Notes under the pieces: generated by a model
What the model was told of the DNA's origin: nothing
What the model saw: the letters and a program-made list of their open reading frames with translations, nothing else
Databases searched by the model: none
In this document: positions 7,891-42,016 of the stretch, in pieces
Layout of the letters: every line of letters starts with the position of its first letter
Numbering within the stretch: the stretch's first letter is position 1
Source: Actinomycetota bacterium
GTDB lineage: Bacteria > Actinomycetota > Geothermincolia > Geothermincolales > RBG-13-55-18
Direction: 5' to 3'
Length of the DNA stretch: 64,000 nt
Assembly: GCA_013178005.1 (NCBI GenBank)
Contig: JABLXL010000014.1
Span: forward strand, 1 to 64,000
Translations under genes and position numbers: made by a program

Positions 7891-8877
7891 TCACAATACC
7901 AGGTCCGCTTCCCTGCCGCACCTGCCGCACTTGCCGTCCGCTATGCCCTCGATGGAAGCGCGGTAGCCCCGGCGGCTCACCAGGAGGTTGCCGCAGGAGG
8001 GACAATGGGTATCCGATCCGTCCCTTATCACCACGTTGCCCAGGTACACGTAATGGAGCTTTTTTCGGGCGATCTCCCTGGCCCGCAGCAACGCCTCCAG
8101 GGGGGTCGGCTCCACGGTCATCTTGTAGGAGGGAAAATAGGCGGAAAAATGCAAGGGTGTTTCGGGTCCCAGGGAAGCCACGAAATCCACCAGCTCGCGG
8201 AAAAGCTCGTCGGAGTCGTTCAGGGTGGGGATGACCAGGTTGGTTATCTCCACGTGAATTCCCGCCCTCTTCGCCGCCCTGCAGGTGGCGAGCACCGGCT
8301 CCAGCTTGGACTTGCATATCCTGCGGTAGAACTCGGGATCCATGGACTTCACGTCGATGTTCATGGCGTCGACGTAGGGGGCCAGCTCCGCGAAGGGGTC
8401 GGGGTTGATGGAGCCGTTGGTAACCAGGACGTTGACCAAGCCCCTTTCCCTGGCCAGGCGCGAGCACTCCAACACGAACTCGTACCAGATGGTGGGCTCG
8501 TTGTAGGTGTAGGCGATACCCACCGAGCCGTGGGTCAGGGCTTCCTCGACCGCTTGCTCCGAGGTGATCTCCGCCGTCCCGGCGTCGGGCTGGAGCATGT
8601 GCCAGTTCTGGCAGAAATCGCAGTGCTGGTTGCAGCCCCTCGTGCCCAGTGAATAGATGGGCGAGCCCGGGTGGAAATGGTAGAGGGGCTTCTTCTCTAT
8701 GGGATCCATGCTCCGGGCCATGGCGCGGTTGTAGACCTCCGAGTACAGCGTGCCGTCGATGTTCACCCGCACCTTGCAGAAGCCCTTCCTTCCCTCGGCT
8801 ATCACGCAATCCTGGGGACAAAGCAGGCAGTGCACCTTGCCCCCTTCCTGCTTCTCGTAATACATCGCCTCTTTCAT
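7891..8877 (-). CDS. amrS: AmrS-type radical SAM enzyme
   Basis: A 328-residue radical SAM protein of the AmmeMemoRadiSam (AmrS, PflA-like) family. The cluster motif is CNQHCDFC (C-x3-C-x2-C), with an additional N-terminal CLLCPQDC pair and a C-terminal zinc-ribbon-like CPSCG and CGRCG. The body contains GIAYTYNEPTIWYEF and the DVKSMDPEFYRR segment typical of the family. AmrS is usually encoded near AmmeMemoRadiSam A and B partners, which are not present here, and its substrate is unsettled. ATG at 8877 has AGGAGGGGG directly upstream; a longer frame to 8892 begins in front of that site and is less likely. Confidence 0.9.
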   Translation of the reverse strand: MKEAMYYEKQEGGKVHCLLCPQDCVIAEGRKGFCKVRVNIDGTLYSEVYNRAMARSMDPIEKKPLYHFHPGSPIYSLGTRGCNQHCDFCQNWHMLQPDAGTAEITSEQAVEEALTHGSVGIAYTYNEPTIWYEFVLECSRLARERGLVNVLVTNGSINPDPFAELAPYVDAMNIDVKSMDPEFYRRICKSKLEPVLATCRAAKRAGIHVEITNLVIPTLNDSDELFRELVDFVASLGPETPLHFSAYFPSYKMTVEPTPLEALLRAREIARKKLHYVYLGNVVIRDGSDTHCPSCGNLLVSRRGYRASIEGIADGKCGRCGREADLVL

Positions 8878-8926
8878 GCCCCCTCCTTTCACCTTTTATA
8901 TTCTACCCCGGCGCGATCTCATGCGT

Positions 8927-8991
8927 TCAGGAATCAAGGAGGGCGGGTTTCGCTTGCTCTTGGAAGATCGCGAGCGCCATGTGTGCAAGAA
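8927..8991 (-). pseudogene. Alternative feoB C-terminal tail (orphan copy)
   Basis: Together with the adjoining repeat copy at 8992-9046, this encodes a second in-frame end for FeoB. The duplicated block leads into LLLGVLAHMALAIF followed by QEQAKPALLDS and a TGA. The intact gene ends LLLGGLVHLALVVF and stop. The two tails are similar as protein but clearly different as DNA, so the orphan is a diverged homologue rather than a fresh duplicate. No start codon or ribosome binding site of its own is visible, so it is probably not translated independently. Confidence 0.7.
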
Positions 8992-9152
8992 CTCCAAGCA
9001 GGAGGGCCAGGATGACCGTGGACCCCGTGATGGCGAGGGTGGCCCTTCCTTGCAGTGGTCTCATCCTAGAAGACAACAAGCGCAAGGTGGACGAGGCCTC
9101 CAAGCAGGAGGGCCAGGATGACCGTGGACCCCGTGATGGCGAGGGTGGCCCT
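8992..9152. repeat. 55-bp direct repeat at feoB 3' end
   Basis: Positions 8992-9046 and 9098-9152 are identical over 55 bases, with a period of 106. The right copy lies inside feoB, 10 codons before its stop. The left copy lies downstream of the stop and runs into the alternative tail. Identity of the block contrasts with strong divergence of the two tails that follow it. Confidence 0.95.
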
Positions 9153-11090
9153 CGTTCCCACTTCCTTCCAGAGAACCGCGAAGGTGGCCACGCAGGGTAT
9201 GTAGACGGCGCAAACCAGGGCGAAGGTGAAGATCTGCCCCCTGGTCATGAACTCCAGCAGGGATGAGCTCTCGGTGATGCCCGGGATGGCTTGGGCGGCC
9301 AGCACCACCAGGAGCGCCAGGGCCAGCTCCTTGCGCAGGAAAGCGAAGATCAGCGCCAGGAGGGCCACGGCGGGTATTCCCAGCCACCCTTCCGCCAGCG
9401 GCTTCAAAGGGGTGGTCAGTCTTACGATCCACCCGCTCTCGTAGAGGAGGCCTAAAAGGAAGCTTCCCGCCACGATGAGCGGAGCCGCTATGTAAAAGAA
9501 ATCCTTCAAGCGCATCCAGGTCTTCTTCAGCACGTTGGCAAGCGAGGGACGCCGGAAGGGAAACATCTCCATTACCAGCCCCGTGGACTCCCCCGACATG
9601 ACCTTGTTGAGAAGGATACCGGCGGCCAGCACCACCGCGAAGAGCAGCGCGAAAAGCCCTAGGGCGGGGAGCACTCCCGCGTAGCGCGACACTCCTCCCA
9701 TGATCACTGCAACCCGGGCGCTGCAAGGGACGAGCACGATGAGCGTGCAGGCGATGATGCGCTCACGCCTCGTCGAGAGCACCCTGGTCCCCATGACCGC
9801 CGGGACGTTGCAGCCCAGGGCGGAGATGAGGGGTATTATCGCCCTCCCGTGCAGGCCCAGGTGGTGCATGACCCTGTCGGTGAGGAAAGCGATGGCGTTG
9901 AGGTAGCCGCTGTCCTCCAGCGCTCCCAGGATGAGGTAGAAGACCAACAGGTAGGGCAGGGCTATCTCCAGCACCGCGCCAAGGCCGTCCAGCGCCCATA
10001 TCAACGACCGCGCCCATACCCCCGTGCCGAGCAACGATTCCAGTCCCCTGCCCGCGGGGCCGCTTACCACGTTCTCCCAGAAACGGGCAAATAGAGAGGC
10101 AAGCTCCCCCCCGCCCCAGAACAAGGCCAGGAAGACCAGCCCCATCACCACCAGCGCCATGGGCAACCCGCTTCTGAAGGAGGTAGCGTATCCCCAGAGC
10201 CTCTCTCCCGCACTGGGGCGCGCATGCTCCCCGCGTTCCTGCACGTTCGCCGCTATGCTCCCGGCGATACCGTGCCGCTCCCTGGCCAGGATGAGGGCGG
10301 CCTTTTCGCCGTGTTCCCTCTCGATTTCGCCCGCTATACTACGGGCATAGGAGACGATCTCAGCGCCCGCCGGGTCCTCATCCAGCGCCCGCAGGAACTC
10401 CTCGTCCTCCTCCAGAAGCAGGATGGAAAGCGCGCGTGGCGAGAGCCCGTAGGGCAATTCTTCCATCTTTCTCTCTATCCGCCTTGCGAGCCTGCGAATT
10501 CGGGACTCGATGTCGGTGGCGTAAGAGAACGGGATGATGGGGTAGTCCTCGCGGCGCTCGGCCAACGCGAGGGCCTGGTGCATGAGCTCATCCAGGCCGT
10601 CCCCTCTTATGCCCACCGTCGGCACCACCGGCACCCCCAGGAACTCCGAGAGGAGCTCCACGTCGGTGTGGGTGCCCGAACGCTCCGCCTGGTCCACGAG
10701 GTTGAGGGCGGTTACCACTGGGCAGCCGAGGTCCAGGAACTGCAGGAGCAGGTACAGGTTGCGGGCAAGGTTGTTGGCGTCCAGGATTACGATGACCACA
10801 TCCGGCTTGCCCTGCAGCACTCCGCGTCTGGCCACCAGCTGGTCCTCGGACACCGCGCCCAGGGCATAGGTTCCGGGCAGGTCCACGATGCCGATGCGGC
10901 GCCCGTCCATCTCCGTCACCGCCAGGTTAAGCTCCACCGTCATGCCTGGATAATTGGCGGTCATCACCCCCATGCCGGTTATACGGTTGAAGATGGTGGA
11001 TTTTCCCACATTGGGGTTACCCGCCAGGGCGAAGACGAACTCCACCCTCTCGCGGATCCTCTCCAGCTGTTCCATGGGCTTTTCTTTCAT
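9066..11090 (-). CDS. feoB: Ferrous iron transporter FeoB
   Basis: A 674-residue Fe(II) transporter. The N-terminal G domain has G1 GNPNVGKST, G3 DLPGTY and G4 NLVD, followed by a helical regulatory domain. The C-terminal half carries two Gate-type membrane blocks with the conserved LGCNVPAVMGTR segment containing the pore Cys. Start ATG at 11090 is preferred: GAGGGAG precedes it and the initiation sequence GAGTGATG looks like an original stop-start overlap with dtxR. It is followed downstream by a duplicated 3' end. Length is normal for FeoB without a C-terminal FeoC-like extension. Iron control by the upstream DtxR-like regulator is likely. Confidence 0.95.
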   Translation of the reverse strand: MKEKPMEQLERIRERVEFVFALAGNPNVGKSTIFNRITGMGVMTANYPGMTVELNLAVTEMDGRRIGIVDLPGTYALGAVSEDQLVARRGVLQGKPDVVIVILDANNLARNLYLLLQFLDLGCPVVTALNLVDQAERSGTHTDVELLSEFLGVPVVPTVGIRGDGLDELMHQALALAERREDYPIIPFSYATDIESRIRRLARRIERKMEELPYGLSPRALSILLLEEDEEFLRALDEDPAGAEIVSYARSIAGEIEREHGEKAALILARERHGIAGSIAANVQERGEHARPSAGERLWGYATSFRSGLPMALVVMGLVFLALFWGGGELASLFARFWENVVSGPAGRGLESLLGTGVWARSLIWALDGLGAVLEIALPYLLVFYLILGALEDSGYLNAIAFLTDRVMHHLGLHGRAIIPLISALGCNVPAVMGTRVLSTRRERIIACTLIVLVPCSARVAVIMGGVSRYAGVLPALGLFALLFAVVLAAGILLNKVMSGESTGLVMEMFPFRRPSLANVLKKTWMRLKDFFYIAAPLIVAGSFLLGLLYESGWIVRLTTPLKPLAEGWLGIPAVALLALIFAFLRKELALALLVVLAAQAIPGITESSSLLEFMTRGQIFTFALVCAVYIPCVATFAVLWKEVGTRATLAITGSTVILALLLGGLVHLALVVF

Positions 11091-11206
11091 CACTCCCTCT
11101 TGCCGCCCTTCCACGAGCAACGCGCCTCGTGGTTCCATGCGTGCTTATTCAGGCTTTGTGCCTATATAGGCTTTTCTTTCATCACTCCCTCTTGCCGCCC
11201 TTCCAC
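11077..11206. repeat. 38-bp direct repeat at dtxR/feoB junction
   Basis: Positions 11077-11114 and 11169-11206 are identical over 38 bases, with a period of 92. Each copy contains the same minus-strand arrangement: the last dtxR codons (WKGGKRE, stop) overlapping an ATG that begins MKEKP. The right copy ends dtxR; the left copy starts feoB. The ancestral junction was probably a single stop-start overlap, now split by 54 bases of intervening DNA (11115-11168). Confidence 0.95.
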
Positions 11207-12365: not shown

Positions 12366-13130
12366 ATGGATTGCCCTTTCTCGCTTGACGGCAAGGTGGC
12401 GGCGGTGAGCGGCGCGGGACGCGGCATCGGCAAGGCCATCGCGCTGGCCCTGGCCCGGGCGGGGGCCGACGTGGCGGTGTTTTCCCGCACCGAGGCGCAG
12501 TTCTCAGCCACCGCGGCGGAGATCGAGGAGCTGGGCTGCGGGGCGCTGGGGATGTGCGTGGACGTGAGCAAGGCGGAGGACGTCGACGCCATGCTCTCCG
12601 CGGTCCTGGAAAAGTTCGGCCGCCTGGACATCATGGTCAACAACGCGGGCCTCAATCCCAGCTACGCCCGTGTTGAGAAAATCCGGGAAGAGGACTACGA
12701 CCTCATCATGGAGGTCAACGTCAAGGGGGTTTTCCTTTGCTCACAGCGGGTGATCCCGGTGATGAAGGAGCAGGGCAAGGGGTGCATCATCAACGTGGCC
12801 TCGGTGGCGGGGCTGAAGGCCCTCTACAAGTGCAGCGCCTACACCGCCAGCAAGGGCGCGGTGGTCCAGCTCACCCGGACCATGGCCCTGGAGCTTGCGC
12901 CCTTCAACATCCGGGTCAACGCCCTATGCCCGGGTTTCGTGACCACGGAGATGACCGAGGGCCTGCTGGGGCACCCCCGCGAGGGCGAACGGGTCCTCTC
13001 CCTCATCCCCATGGGACGGACGGGCGAGCTGGAGGAGATCGCGGCGGCGGCGGTCTTCCTCGCCTCGGACGCCGCCTCCTACGTCACCGGGGCGGTGCTC
13101 GCCGTGGACGGCGGCTGGTCCTGCTGGTAG
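12366..13130 (+). CDS. SDR-family oxidoreductase
   Basis: A 254-residue classical short-chain dehydrogenase. The cofactor motif is GAGRGIG near residues 17-23, NNAG is near residue 91, and the catalytic Ser-Tyr-Lys are in VASVAG and YTASKG, followed by PGFVTTEMTE. The C-terminal VTGAVLAVDGGWS is typical of FabG-like and related enzymes. The substrate cannot be assigned. AAAGGAG six bases before the ATG supports the start. The last 37 bases before the final three codons are repeated downstream. Confidence 0.92.
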   Translation: MDCPFSLDGKVAAVSGAGRGIGKAIALALARAGADVAVFSRTEAQFSATAAEIEELGCGALGMCVDVSKAEDVDAMLSAVLEKFGRLDIMVNNAGLNPSYARVEKIREEDYDLIMEVNVKGVFLCSQRVIPVMKEQGKGCIINVASVAGLKALYKCSAYTASKGAVVQLTRTMALELAPFNIRVNALCPGFVTTEMTEGLLGHPREGERVLSLIPMGRTGELEEIAAAAVFLASDAASYVTGAVLAVDGGWSCW

Positions 13131-13257
13131 GAACTTGTTTCTCGCTGCTTACTTGGTAGATGCTGGGAATGCAGAGGATGTGGCACCATCCGTCACAGGA
13201 GCCACGCCGATGACCGGGGCGGTGCTCGCCGTGGACGGCGGCTGGTCCTATTGGTAA
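13086..13257. repeat. 37-bp direct repeat at SDR gene 3' end
   Basis: Positions 13086-13122 and 13213-13249 are identical over 37 bases. The gene ends WSCW and TAG; the downstream copy ends WSYW and TAA, in the same relative frame and preceded by an in-frame ATG (13210). The orphan copy therefore encodes a variant end of the same protein. No ribosome binding site precedes it. Confidence 0.93.
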
Positions 13258-24033: not shown

Positions 24034-24084
24034 ATATCACATTGCGCGCCCCGGATATGCCGGAAACAACCGGCGAAAGTAGAC

Positions 24085-26106
24085 GTGGAGGAGATGAGGT
24101 CGTTGCTTAAGAAACTGCTCACGCCGCTCAAGGTGCACAACCTGGAACTGAGGAACCGTATCGTGATGACCGCCATGCACCTCAACTTCACCCCCGATGG
24201 AAAGGTGAACGACCGTATCGTCGCCTTCTACGAGGAAAGGGCTCGGGGGGGCACTGGTCTCATCATCGTGGGCGGAAGCATCATCGACGATTACGCCGGC
24301 GCCTACTGGCTGCTGGACATGCGCGACGACTCGTGCATAGAGGGACACTCCATCCTGGCAGACGCCATCAAGCGGCATGGCGCGGCGGCGGCCTGCCAGC
24401 TGTACCATGCTGGTAGATATTCTCATTCTATGACCATGGAAGGAAAACAGGCGGTGGCGCCGTCTCCGGTGCGCTCGCGCTTCACCAACGAGGAGCCGCG
24501 CGAGATGACCCTGGAGGACATCAAGCGCACCATCCAGGCCTACGCGGACGCGGCGTTGAGGGTAAAGAAAGCCGGGTACGACATGGTGGAGGTGCTGGCC
24601 TGCACGGGCTACCTCATCTGCCAGTTCCTGTCGCCGGTCACCAACCTGCGCACGGACGAGTACGGGGGGTCCTGGGAAAACCGCATGCGCTTCGGCCTTG
24701 AGGTGGCGGACGCGGTGCGCGAGGCGGTGGGGCCGGACTTCACCGTGGGATTCCGCATCGCAGGCCACGATTACATCGAGGGGGGCAACACCAACCGGGA
24801 ATGGGCTCTCTTCGCAGCCGAGCTCGAGAAGCACGGCGTCGACCTCATAAACGTCACCGGCGGATGGCACGAGACCAGGGTGCCGCAGTTGCCGATGTCC
24901 GTGCCCCGCGCCGGGCTGGCCTATCTCGCGGCGGGCGTGAAGCAGAGCGTGGGCATTCCTGTCATCGCCTCCAACCGCATCAACGACGTCTTCGTGGCCG
25001 ACGAGATCCTGCGCATGGGAATGGCGGACCTGGTGGCCATGGCGCGCGGGCTCATCGCCGACCCCGAGATAGCCGTCAAAGCGGCGGAGGGAAGGTACGA
25101 GGAGATAACCCATTGCATAGGGTGCAACCAGGGCTGCTTCGACCACGTCTTCTACCTGCAGCCGGTGACCTGCATGCTGAACCCCCGGGCGGGGCGCGAG
25201 CTGGAATACAAGGTGGAACGGGCAAAAACCCAAAAACGCGTGGCGGTGGTGGGGGGAGGTCCTGCCGGCATGAAGGCCGCCCTCACGGCGGCACAGCGAG
25301 GCCACGACGTCACCCTGTTCGAGAAGAGCGACGTGCTGGGTGGCCAGCTCAACCTCGCGGCCGTGCCGCCGGGACGCGAGGAGTTCTGGACCGCGGTGGA
25401 AGACCTGGACGTCCAGCTCGACAACGCGGGGGTCGAGCTCCGGCTGGAGACTGAGGCCACGGCGGAGATGCTCAAGCGGGAGGGTTTCGACGCGGTGGTG
25501 GTTGCCACCGGGGCGCGCCAGGCCGTACCCCCCATCCCGGGCATCGACGGTCCCAACGTGGTCATGGCCTGGGACGTGCTGGAGGGCAAGGAGGACCCCG
25601 AGGGAAAGAACATCGTAATCATCGGGGGCGGGGCAGTGGGGTCGGAGACCGCCATGTACGTGGCCAGCATCGGCACCATCTCCGGGGACACCCTGTTCTA
25701 CCTCTTCATGAACAACGGCGAGGATATCGAGACGTTGCGCGAGCTTTGCAGCCGCGGCATCAAGAAGGTCACGGTCATAGAGATGCTGGACAAGGTATGC
25801 CGCGACGTGGGGATCTCCACACGCTGGACCATCCTGCAGGACATGCGCAACCTGGGGATCGAGATCCGCAGGAAGGCGGTGGCCAAACGCATAGAGGCAG
25901 GAAAGGTCGTCGTGGACGTGGACGGCCGCGAGGAGGAGATCCCGGCGGACACGGTGATCATAGCCGCCGGCTCCTGTCCCGCGGGCGAGCTCTACGAGGA
26001 GCTCAAGGACTCCGGCATGGAGGTCTACCTGGTGGGCGACGCCAGGGAGGCGCGCAAGGCCATCGAGGCCATCCAGGACGGCTACGAGATCGCCTTGAAG
26101 ATCTAG
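24085..26106 (+). CDS. FMN/FAD/4Fe-4S oxidoreductase, 2,4-dienoyl-CoA reductase-like
   Basis: A 673-residue Old Yellow Enzyme-type fusion of the FadH/trimethylamine dehydrogenase architecture. Residues 1-340 form the FMN TIM barrel (LKVHNLELRNRIVMTAMHLN at the start). The cluster motif CIGCNQGC with a fourth Cys in VTCMLNP starts near residue 344. A FAD/NAD(P)H domain follows, with VAVVGGGPAGMKAALTAA and a second dinucleotide motif IVIIGGGAVGSE. Such enzymes reduce activated C=C bonds, often of enoyl-CoAs. GTG 24085 and ATG 24094 are both possible starts. Its 3' end is included in the duplicated junction at 26081-26303. Confidence 0.9.
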   Translation: MEEMRSLLKKLLTPLKVHNLELRNRIVMTAMHLNFTPDGKVNDRIVAFYEERARGGTGLIIVGGSIIDDYAGAYWLLDMRDDSCIEGHSILADAIKRHGAAAACQLYHAGRYSHSMTMEGKQAVAPSPVRSRFTNEEPREMTLEDIKRTIQAYADAALRVKKAGYDMVEVLACTGYLICQFLSPVTNLRTDEYGGSWENRMRFGLEVADAVREAVGPDFTVGFRIAGHDYIEGGNTNREWALFAAELEKHGVDLINVTGGWHETRVPQLPMSVPRAGLAYLAAGVKQSVGIPVIASNRINDVFVADEILRMGMADLVAMARGLIADPEIAVKAAEGRYEEITHCIGCNQGCFDHVFYLQPVTCMLNPRAGRELEYKVERAKTQKRVAVVGGGPAGMKAALTAAQRGHDVTLFEKSDVLGGQLNLAAVPPGREEFWTAVEDLDVQLDNAGVELRLETEATAEMLKREGFDAVVVATGARQAVPPIPGIDGPNVVMAWDVLEGKEDPEGKNIVIIGGGAVGSETAMYVASIGTISGDTLFYLFMNNGEDIETLRELCSRGIKKVTVIEMLDKVCRDVGISTRWTILQDMRNLGIEIRRKAVAKRIEAGKVVVDVDGREEEIPADTVIIAAGSCPAGELYEELKDSGMEVYLVGDAREARKAIEAIQDGYEIALKI

Positions 26107-26326
26107 CCCGGGTATTTGCCGAGGGTCTCTCGCGCGCGGCGCATGCAATTGGAAACAATACCGCTTTCCTACGTGGATGGCTTCTGCATAAAAGCCTCGC
26201 GGGCGCGGCGCACGAGATCGGAGATGATGGCGTCCGTCCTGCTACGAGTCCGCCTTCGAGGTCTAGCCCGGGTATTTGTCGAGGGTCTCGCGGGCGCGGC
26301 GCACGAGATCGGAGATGATGGCGTCC
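26081..26326. repeat. Duplicated convergent gene junction
   Basis: Positions 26081-26143 and 26241-26303 match at 55 of 63 bases. Both contain the end of the rightward reductase gene (GYEIALKI stop versus CYESAFEV stop) and the end of the leftward REC-HisKA gene (RRARETLGKYPG versus RRARETLDKYPG). A second block, 26196-26235, is identical over 40 bases to 26287-26326 inside the REC-HisKA gene and leads into another tail. The intact REC-HisKA gene uses the right-hand copies; the intact reductase uses the left-hand copy. Confidence 0.9.
26170..26235 (-). pseudogene. Alternative tail of the REC-HisKA gene (orphan copy)
   Basis: On the minus strand the 40-base block encodes DAIISDLVRRARE exactly as in the intact gene, then continues AFMQKPST and TAG instead of TLDKYPG and TAG. 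It keeps the reading frame and its own stop. No start site is visible. Confidence 0.7.
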
Positions 26327-27012
26327 ATCTTGAAGCCGTGCTCCACCACCGTTTCGAGCATGGCCTTCTGCTGCTCGTTTAGAGGGCCAGCCTTCTCCTT
26401 TGCCACCGTGCCGGCATAGGAGATGATCACCGTGAGCGGCGTGCGCAGGTCGTGGGACATGACGGATCGGATTCCCTCGAGGGTCGTCAGCGCTTCTTCA
26501 AGGTCGGCCTTGGTCTCCGGTAGGGAGGGTTTTTCTTCGTCCGTCCTGGAATCCCCGTCCTTCTCCGGCGTCTCCAGCCGCTCCCCGGCACCGCCATAGG
26601 CGATGAACTCCCGCACCTGTAAAGGGAACGCATCGGGGTCCACCGGCTTCTTGACAAACCCGTCGAAAAGCGCCAGTACCTCGGACCTTTCCTCCTCCCT
26701 GATGGAGGCGCTGAGTGCCACCACGGGCACACCCTGGAGGCCAGACACCTTTCGGAGGTCCTCCACCACCATACTCCCCGCCCTGCCGGGCATGTGCAGG
26801 TCGAGGAGGATGAGGTCGGGAAGACGCTTGCGGGCAATCTCCGCCGCGGCGTCCGCGTTTCCCGTGGTTATGACCTCAAACCCCTCGGCTTCCAGCAAGC
26901 CGCGCACTATCTCGCGCTCCACGCCGCTGTCGTCGATATAGAGTACGAGTCCGTTCTCCATGCCATCCATGATATCACCGTAAATATCATCGGGCTCGCC
27001 GTCTTCAAGCAT
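26263..27012 (-). CDS. REC-HisKA two-domain protein lacking an ATPase domain
   Basis: A 249-residue signalling protein. A receiver domain covers about residues 20-140, with acidic DD near residue 26, phospho-acceptor Asp in LILLDLHMPG, Thr/Ser in VALSAS and Lys in FVKKPVD. An acidic linker leads to a histidine phosphotransfer (DHp/HisKA) helix pair with the H-box MSHDLRTPLTVIISYAG. The protein then stops: the HATPase_c domain expected of a kinase is missing. It could be a phosphotransfer protein or a truncated hybrid kinase. The start is uncertain; an ATG at 26970 has a better upstream site (GGTGAT) than the one at 27012. Its 3' end has two variant copies downstream. Confidence 0.82.
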   Translation of the reverse strand: MLEDGEPDDIYGDIMDGMENGLVLYIDDSGVEREIVRGLLEAEGFEVITTGNADAAAEIARKRLPDLILLDLHMPGRAGSMVVEDLRKVSGLQGVPVVALSASIREEERSEVLALFDGFVKKPVDPDAFPLQVREFIAYGGAGERLETPEKDGDSRTDEEKPSLPETKADLEEALTTLEGIRSVMSHDLRTPLTVIISYAGTVAKEKAGPLNEQQKAMLETVVEHGFKMDAIISDLVRRARETLDKYPG

Positions 27013-41716: not shown

Positions 41717-41737
41717 GGGAATAAAGGTGATGCCGGC

Positions 41738-42016
41738 ATGGAAGATTGGCAGTTCGCGAGGGAGATCACGCTGAAGACGAGGCCGGGCGAGGAGGGGTTG
41801 ATCGCATTCGACTTGCCATAAGGAAGCAGGAGTGTAAACGGCATGGAAGATTGGCAGTTCGCGAGGGAGATCACGCTGAAGACGAGGCCGGGCGAGGAGG
41901 GGTTGACCGCATTCGACTTGCCATAAGGAAGCAGGAGTGTAAACGGCATGGAAGATTGGCAGTTCGCGAGGGAGATCACGCTGAAGACGAGGCCGGGCGA
42001 GGAGGGGTTGATCCTC
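41738..42016. repeat. Tandem triplication of the DUF2889 gene 5' end
   Basis: Units start at 41738, 41843 and 41948, with a period of exactly 105 bases. Units 1 and 2 differ at one base. Each encodes MEDWQFAREITLKTRPGEE, then GL(I/T)AFDLP and TAA. The third matches the first 70 bases and then continues into the full gene. The repeat includes an upstream AGCAGGAG, so each copy carries its own initiation region. The near identity suggests a recent event. Confidence 0.95.

Follow-up and report, generated by a model that had tools for sequence, protein, structure and literature searches.

A drifted second copy of the feoB end beyond the feoB stop, one of many short local duplications in an actinobacterial genome

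Just beyond the stop codon of feoB lies a second copy of the end of this gene, of which the first 55 bp are identical to the gene and the remainder has drifted extensively. This arrangement is probably the relic of an old 106-bp tandem duplication of the feoB end that has decayed, with a later recopying from the gene restoring its first 55 bp. Taken singly, the feoB case looks like ordinary mutational debris; it is the density of such duplications in this genome that is unusual. The features of the locus, within the window (the whole 64-kb stretch of DNA that was analysed), are as follows.

9066 to 11138, minus strand: feoB (NCBIfam TIGR00437 feoB match, 431 bits)
End of feoB, minus strand: feoB C-terminus, the gene's own ending, ...LLLGGLVHLALVVF*
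9098 to 9152, minus strand: 55-bp block, copy within feoB (exact repeat)
9066 to 9097, minus strand: tail A, feoB's own tail, stop codon TAG (relatives' FeoB ends match at 21-22 of 30 bases)
9047 to 9065, minus strand: 19-base spacer from the feoB stop to the second block, with an ATG at 9064-9062 (read from the sequence)
8992 to 9046, minus strand: 55-bp block, second copy past the stop (exact repeat)
8927 to 8991, minus strand: orphan tail B, GVLAHMALAIF followed by QEQAKPALLDS, stop codon TGA (19 of 32 bases in register with tail A)
8927 to 9064, minus strand: orphan open frame of 45 codons, without a family match
7891 to 8892, minus strand: next gene, AmmeMemoRadiSam system radical SAM enzyme (TIGR04337), whose position beside feoB is conserved in most of the relatives that were examined

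The blocks at 8992-9046 and 9098-9152 form an exact 55-bp direct repeat with a start-to-start spacing of 106, the two copies lying 51 bp apart. The terminal residues of feoB (9066-11138, minus strand) are LGGLVHLALVVF, while the drifted tail after the second block encodes LGVLAHMALAIFQEQAKPALLDS; both the second C-terminus past the stop and the 11-residue extension on the orphan tail are present as the original prediction had described them. Similarity between the copies falls from 100% over 55 bases to approximately 60% over the next 33 and approximately 40% over the rest, giving a unit identity of 0.77. As had been argued, more than uniform drift is needed to place 55 identical bases next to approximately 40% divergence, although the accompanying premise, that a plain tandem duplication gives similar tails, is valid only where the duplication is young and has undergone no subsequent recopying. 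With two locus-specific copies lying head to tail, the feoB-end repeat has the layout of a minisatellite-like local tandem duplication, and no other copy of the 55-bp repeat, second feoB end or orphan tail was found elsewhere in the same genome.

The orphan frame opens with an ATG one base past the feoB stop and is offset from the feoB frame by one base, so the second copy does not provide a read-through extension of feoB. The feoB open reading frame itself extends further upstream than the start codon that is probably used, at 11090 (MKEKPMEQ...), and the encoded protein is 86-89% identical to the FeoB of two congeners, the sister species Ca. Solincola daggyaiensis (G001), the nearest relative found that bears a name, and G002. 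The TIGR00437 match stops at residue 659 of 690, which makes the tail a variable part of the protein. The stability of the secondary structure of the region is not above that of shuffled sequences (z 0.77).

Following the block, tails A and B are equal at 19 of 32 bases in register (P = 2 × 10-4, relative to random 32-mers from the genome). A register-free alignment gives only P = 0.03-0.04, hence the case for homologous tails is built on the register, together with the likeness of the orphan tail to the FeoB ends of relatives. In this comparison, which spans approximately 30 bases, tail A matches the FeoB ends of G001 and G002 at 22/30 and 21/30 bases respectively, orphan tail B matches them at 20/30 and 19/30 (P approximately 10-4 each), and the two tails match each other at 19/30. 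At two positions tail B and both congeners have alanine where tail A has valine; conversely, a glycine and a leucine kept in tail A are missing from tail B. As each tail matches the relatives' ends while keeping different residues, both are FeoB ends that have drifted separately, and orphan tail B is, judged from its sequence, a true FeoB end. The possibility that the orphan tail would resemble no FeoB end at all, named beforehand as the observation that would overturn the original interpretation, was tested; with matches of 19-20 of 30 bases between the orphan tail and the relatives' ends, that interpretation was not refuted on this ground.

Both congeners have a single feoB end, LGGLAHLVLALF or LGGLAHLVIALF, followed by the AmmeMemoRadiSam radical SAM gene, and the feoB-end stretch is present in a single copy in each of them; the source species is represented by one genome. 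Relatives share one main feoB end, of which tail A has the length and form. Amongst the 30 other genomes of the class (31 in total), no FeoB with the orphan ending or its extension was found.

The sequence of events envisaged begins with the duplication in tandem, within the lineage, of a segment of approximately 106 bp comprising the last feoB codons, the stop and a few bases beyond. The complete gene end would have been kept from the first copy, leaving the second, lying past the stop, free to drift. The first 55 bp of this second copy would later have been overwritten from the gene, through either gene conversion or a local template switch, leaving an exact block beside a tail that had already drifted by approximately 40%. 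The event would be one among many duplications of similar size that are tolerated between genes or at 3' ends. Some considerations count against a decayed duplication: tails A and B have diverged from one another as far as each has from a sister species, a considerable age for a piece of debris that the congeners do not have, and the edge of the recopied tract is not datable from a single strain.

The level of local duplication across the same genome (G000, a draft of 98 contigs) was studied by scanning 1.264 Mb for exact cores of at least 20 bp with periods of 40-400. The scan identified 108 clusters, 92 outside genes and 16 inside, with 41 of the clusters covering a gene 3' end; these counts are approximate, genes having been called with a simple codon-usage caller made for the analysis. 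Periods are mostly 75-150 bp. The density outside genes is 73 Mb-1, twice that of the congener G002 (35), compared also with 47 in the relative G006, and with 0, 14 and 8 in small samples (120-140 kb) of the distant actinobacteria G041, G045 and G052. At 3' ends the density is 32 Mb-1, as against 5.0 and 5.6 in G002 and G006 (Fisher P = 1.6 × 10-5, G000 versus both together), and 33 duplications of this class are observed where 10.4 are expected. Inside genes, by contrast, 16 are observed and approximately 66 expected; the period is a multiple of 3 in every one of these 16, whereas the others divide as 33, 30 and 29 over the three remainders. Since a duplication that truncates a gene might be mistaken for one at its natural end, gene ends were also compared with those of orthologues: 12 of the 14 testable genes stop at the same residue (plus or minus three), the remaining two having partial matches to more distant homologues only. 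Random errors of assembly would be expected to strike mostly within genes and disrupt them. The depletion and multiples of 3 within genes, along with the retention of orthologue ends, make the duplications look real and unlike errors of assembly. Their survival between genes and across 3' ends would reflect their being harmless there.

Identity between copies grades without a break from 100% to strong decay. Of 19 loci with a unit identity of 0.85-0.95, 11 have a longest exact run of a length that mismatches placed at random would rarely leave (P < 0.01); the 20-bp exact-core requirement biases low-identity cases towards such patchiness. At gapped loci, identity over the ten bases that flank the exact block on each side is 53%, compared with a null of 27%, implying that exact blocks sit within drifted copies. 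At several gapped loci other than feoB the interval is similar to neither flank, so that some events may be displaced copies with filler, each produced in a single step, and not decayed tandems. The recurrence of an exact block with drifted flanks at dozens of loci points to a general local process of duplication and recopying. It is unlikely that this amounts to an unusually active process at the level of the species, whereby stretches of approximately 100 bp are copied a short way downstream and parts of them later recopied. Were such copying active, orphan gene ends would be left behind in dozens, open to being fused back in frame by recombination, and the C-termini of proteins would continually be offered for replacement.

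Within the window there are six loci of gene-end duplication, that of feoB included, and one 105-bp array. The loci other than feoB are:

11077-11206 (11077/11169): 38-bp duplicate, at a spacing of 92, of the dtxR-feoA 3' end together with the feoB start
13086-13256 (13086/13213): second copy of a short-chain dehydrogenase end; ...VDGGWSYW* after ...VDGGWSCW*
21982/22056: end of a small gene
26196/26287: end of a response regulator
51324/51398: end of a DUF6941 gene

The clearest display of a history of duplication, drift and partial recopying is found at the response-regulator locus, where the 3' end of a response-regulator/HisKA gene (26263-27012) is present in three tandem copies (26100-26332). 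The alignment of units 1 and 3 spans 83 bp; it continues past the stop and enters the end of the convergent neighbour (24084-26106), which unit 3 overlaps. Unit 2, lying between them, consists of a fresh 40-bp block and another tail (AFMQKPST versus TLDKYPG). Applied to feoB, a history of this kind accounts for every feature observed. With the exception of this third copy beside 26263-27012, no source beyond chance for the intervals of the six loci could be found in 464 kb of the genome. The duplicate of the dtxR-feoA end lengthens the apparent N-terminus of feoB, and in G001 the dtxR-feoA end has likewise been duplicated, separately, with a spacing of approximately 67 bp, versus 92 in the window. 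The 105-bp array (41734-42013) comprises 2.6 nearly perfect copies over the start of a gene; every copy begins the peptide MEDWQFAREITLKTRPGEEGL, and the first ones end in a stop.

It had been proposed that the feoB end was replaced by DNA from a relative, with the old end left behind. Such a horizontal replacement, which would involve an illegitimate join downstream and tail B as the recipient's old end, is rather unlikely; it would account for both tails being FeoB-like, for a divergence between them (19/30) of the size seen between species (22/30 for tail A and 20/30 for tail B against G001), and for the alanines that tail B shares with the congeners where tail A has valine. However, a donor diverged in the tail should differ within the 55 bp too, as G001 does at approximately 9 of 55 aligned bases, so recopying would be needed even if a replacement had occurred. 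The tail that would be the imported one agrees in length and form with the ends seen in relatives, the ending supposedly displaced was found in no FeoB of the 30 other genomes of the class, and no lasting step marking an imported stretch was found in the identity along feoB to both congeners, which varies between 0.72 and 0.95. Furthermore, since many unrelated loci show this pattern, many transfers would be demanded. A template switch, in which the polymerase jumped back, copied 55 bp of feoB a second time beside a pre-existing tail B and jumped forward again, with the likeness of the latter to FeoB ends owing to chance or to an older duplicate, seems less probable still: the genome does contain exact copies of 57-126 bp around unrelated gaps of 7-131 bp, but the match of tail B to FeoB ends in register (P approximately 10-4) is hard to ascribe to chance, even once the many loci are taken into account.

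That the repeat arose through metagenome assembly, from two strain haplotypes or contig ends being joined with their overlap unmerged, is very unlikely. The assembly is a fragmented draft, the named relatives are metagenome-assembled and 55 is a common k-mer size; yet the other repeats of the genome vary widely in length, and random artefacts would break genes, in which duplications are instead depleted and of periods that are all multiples of 3, with orthologue ends kept. Also very unlikely is a working switch, in which the 55-bp copies recombine with loss of 106 bp and FeoB gains an alternative C-terminus as a form of variation. The resulting fusion would be in frame (...LLLGVLAHMALAIFQEQAKPALLDS), making the previously suggested role of the orphan tail as a reservoir for switching mechanically possible, but any duplication of this kind would share that property, and no evidence of use was found. 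Moreover, the deletion is one-way, the orphan open frame is not conserved, the tail lies beyond the TIGR00437 match in a variable part of the protein, and the same debris is found at unrelated housekeeping genes.

Several known systems were considered as sources of the arrangement and rejected. The 13 differences between the tails involve mixed bases, 8 of them being transitions, and are not confined to template adenines as for a diversity-generating retroelement. Elements that integrate into gene 3' ends provide a likeness, in that one copy restores the gene end while the displaced end remains, with a block of identity common to both, but the interval of 51 bp between the end copies contains no gene and is too short for an element. 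Off-target integration by Cas1-Cas2, yielding a repeat, spacer and repeat, was prompted by five intervals of 46-54 bp in the window, and was dropped when the wider sample was seen to have blocks of 24 to 126 and intervals of 7 to above 100.

The copy number of minisatellites, or VNTR, shifts by slippage or recombination, and the MIRUs of Mycobacterium tuberculosis are one family of related elements of roughly 50-100 bp. The duplications described here resemble VNTR and MIRU loci in being short tandem repeats found mostly between genes, as is typical of bacterial minisatellites (PMC3635867), but differ in that their units are locus-specific, are mostly paired and have often decayed. An outbreak of M. 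tuberculosis is reported to have shown gene conversion among repeats, there between PE/PPE genes (PMC12046097). The likeness lies in a stretch of one copy being overwritten by another, leaving a patch of identity in diverged copies; here, rather than between PE/PPE genes, such conversion would have acted between a gene end and a short duplicate approximately 100 bp away. A literature search found no paper on the genus Solincola, the matches to the name being other organisms, and none on duplicated gene ends like that of feoB.

What looks like a second C-terminus beyond a stop codon does not necessarily imply exchange with a relative. The feoB case alone is ordinary, and it is the genomic setting, with approximately 73 local duplications per Mb outside genes, that merits attention. 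Duplications at 3' ends are about sevenfold fewer in the sampled relatives (32 versus about 5 Mb-1), which would make this lineage a good place in which to study the origin, decay and recopying of short duplications. Short duplications over the feoB stop also occur independently in two other relatives: in G004 (L014) a feoB-end stretch is found again downstream of feoB, at a spacing of 137 and with two mismatches in approximately 30 bases, and in G009 a 16-bp repeat spans the feoB stop.
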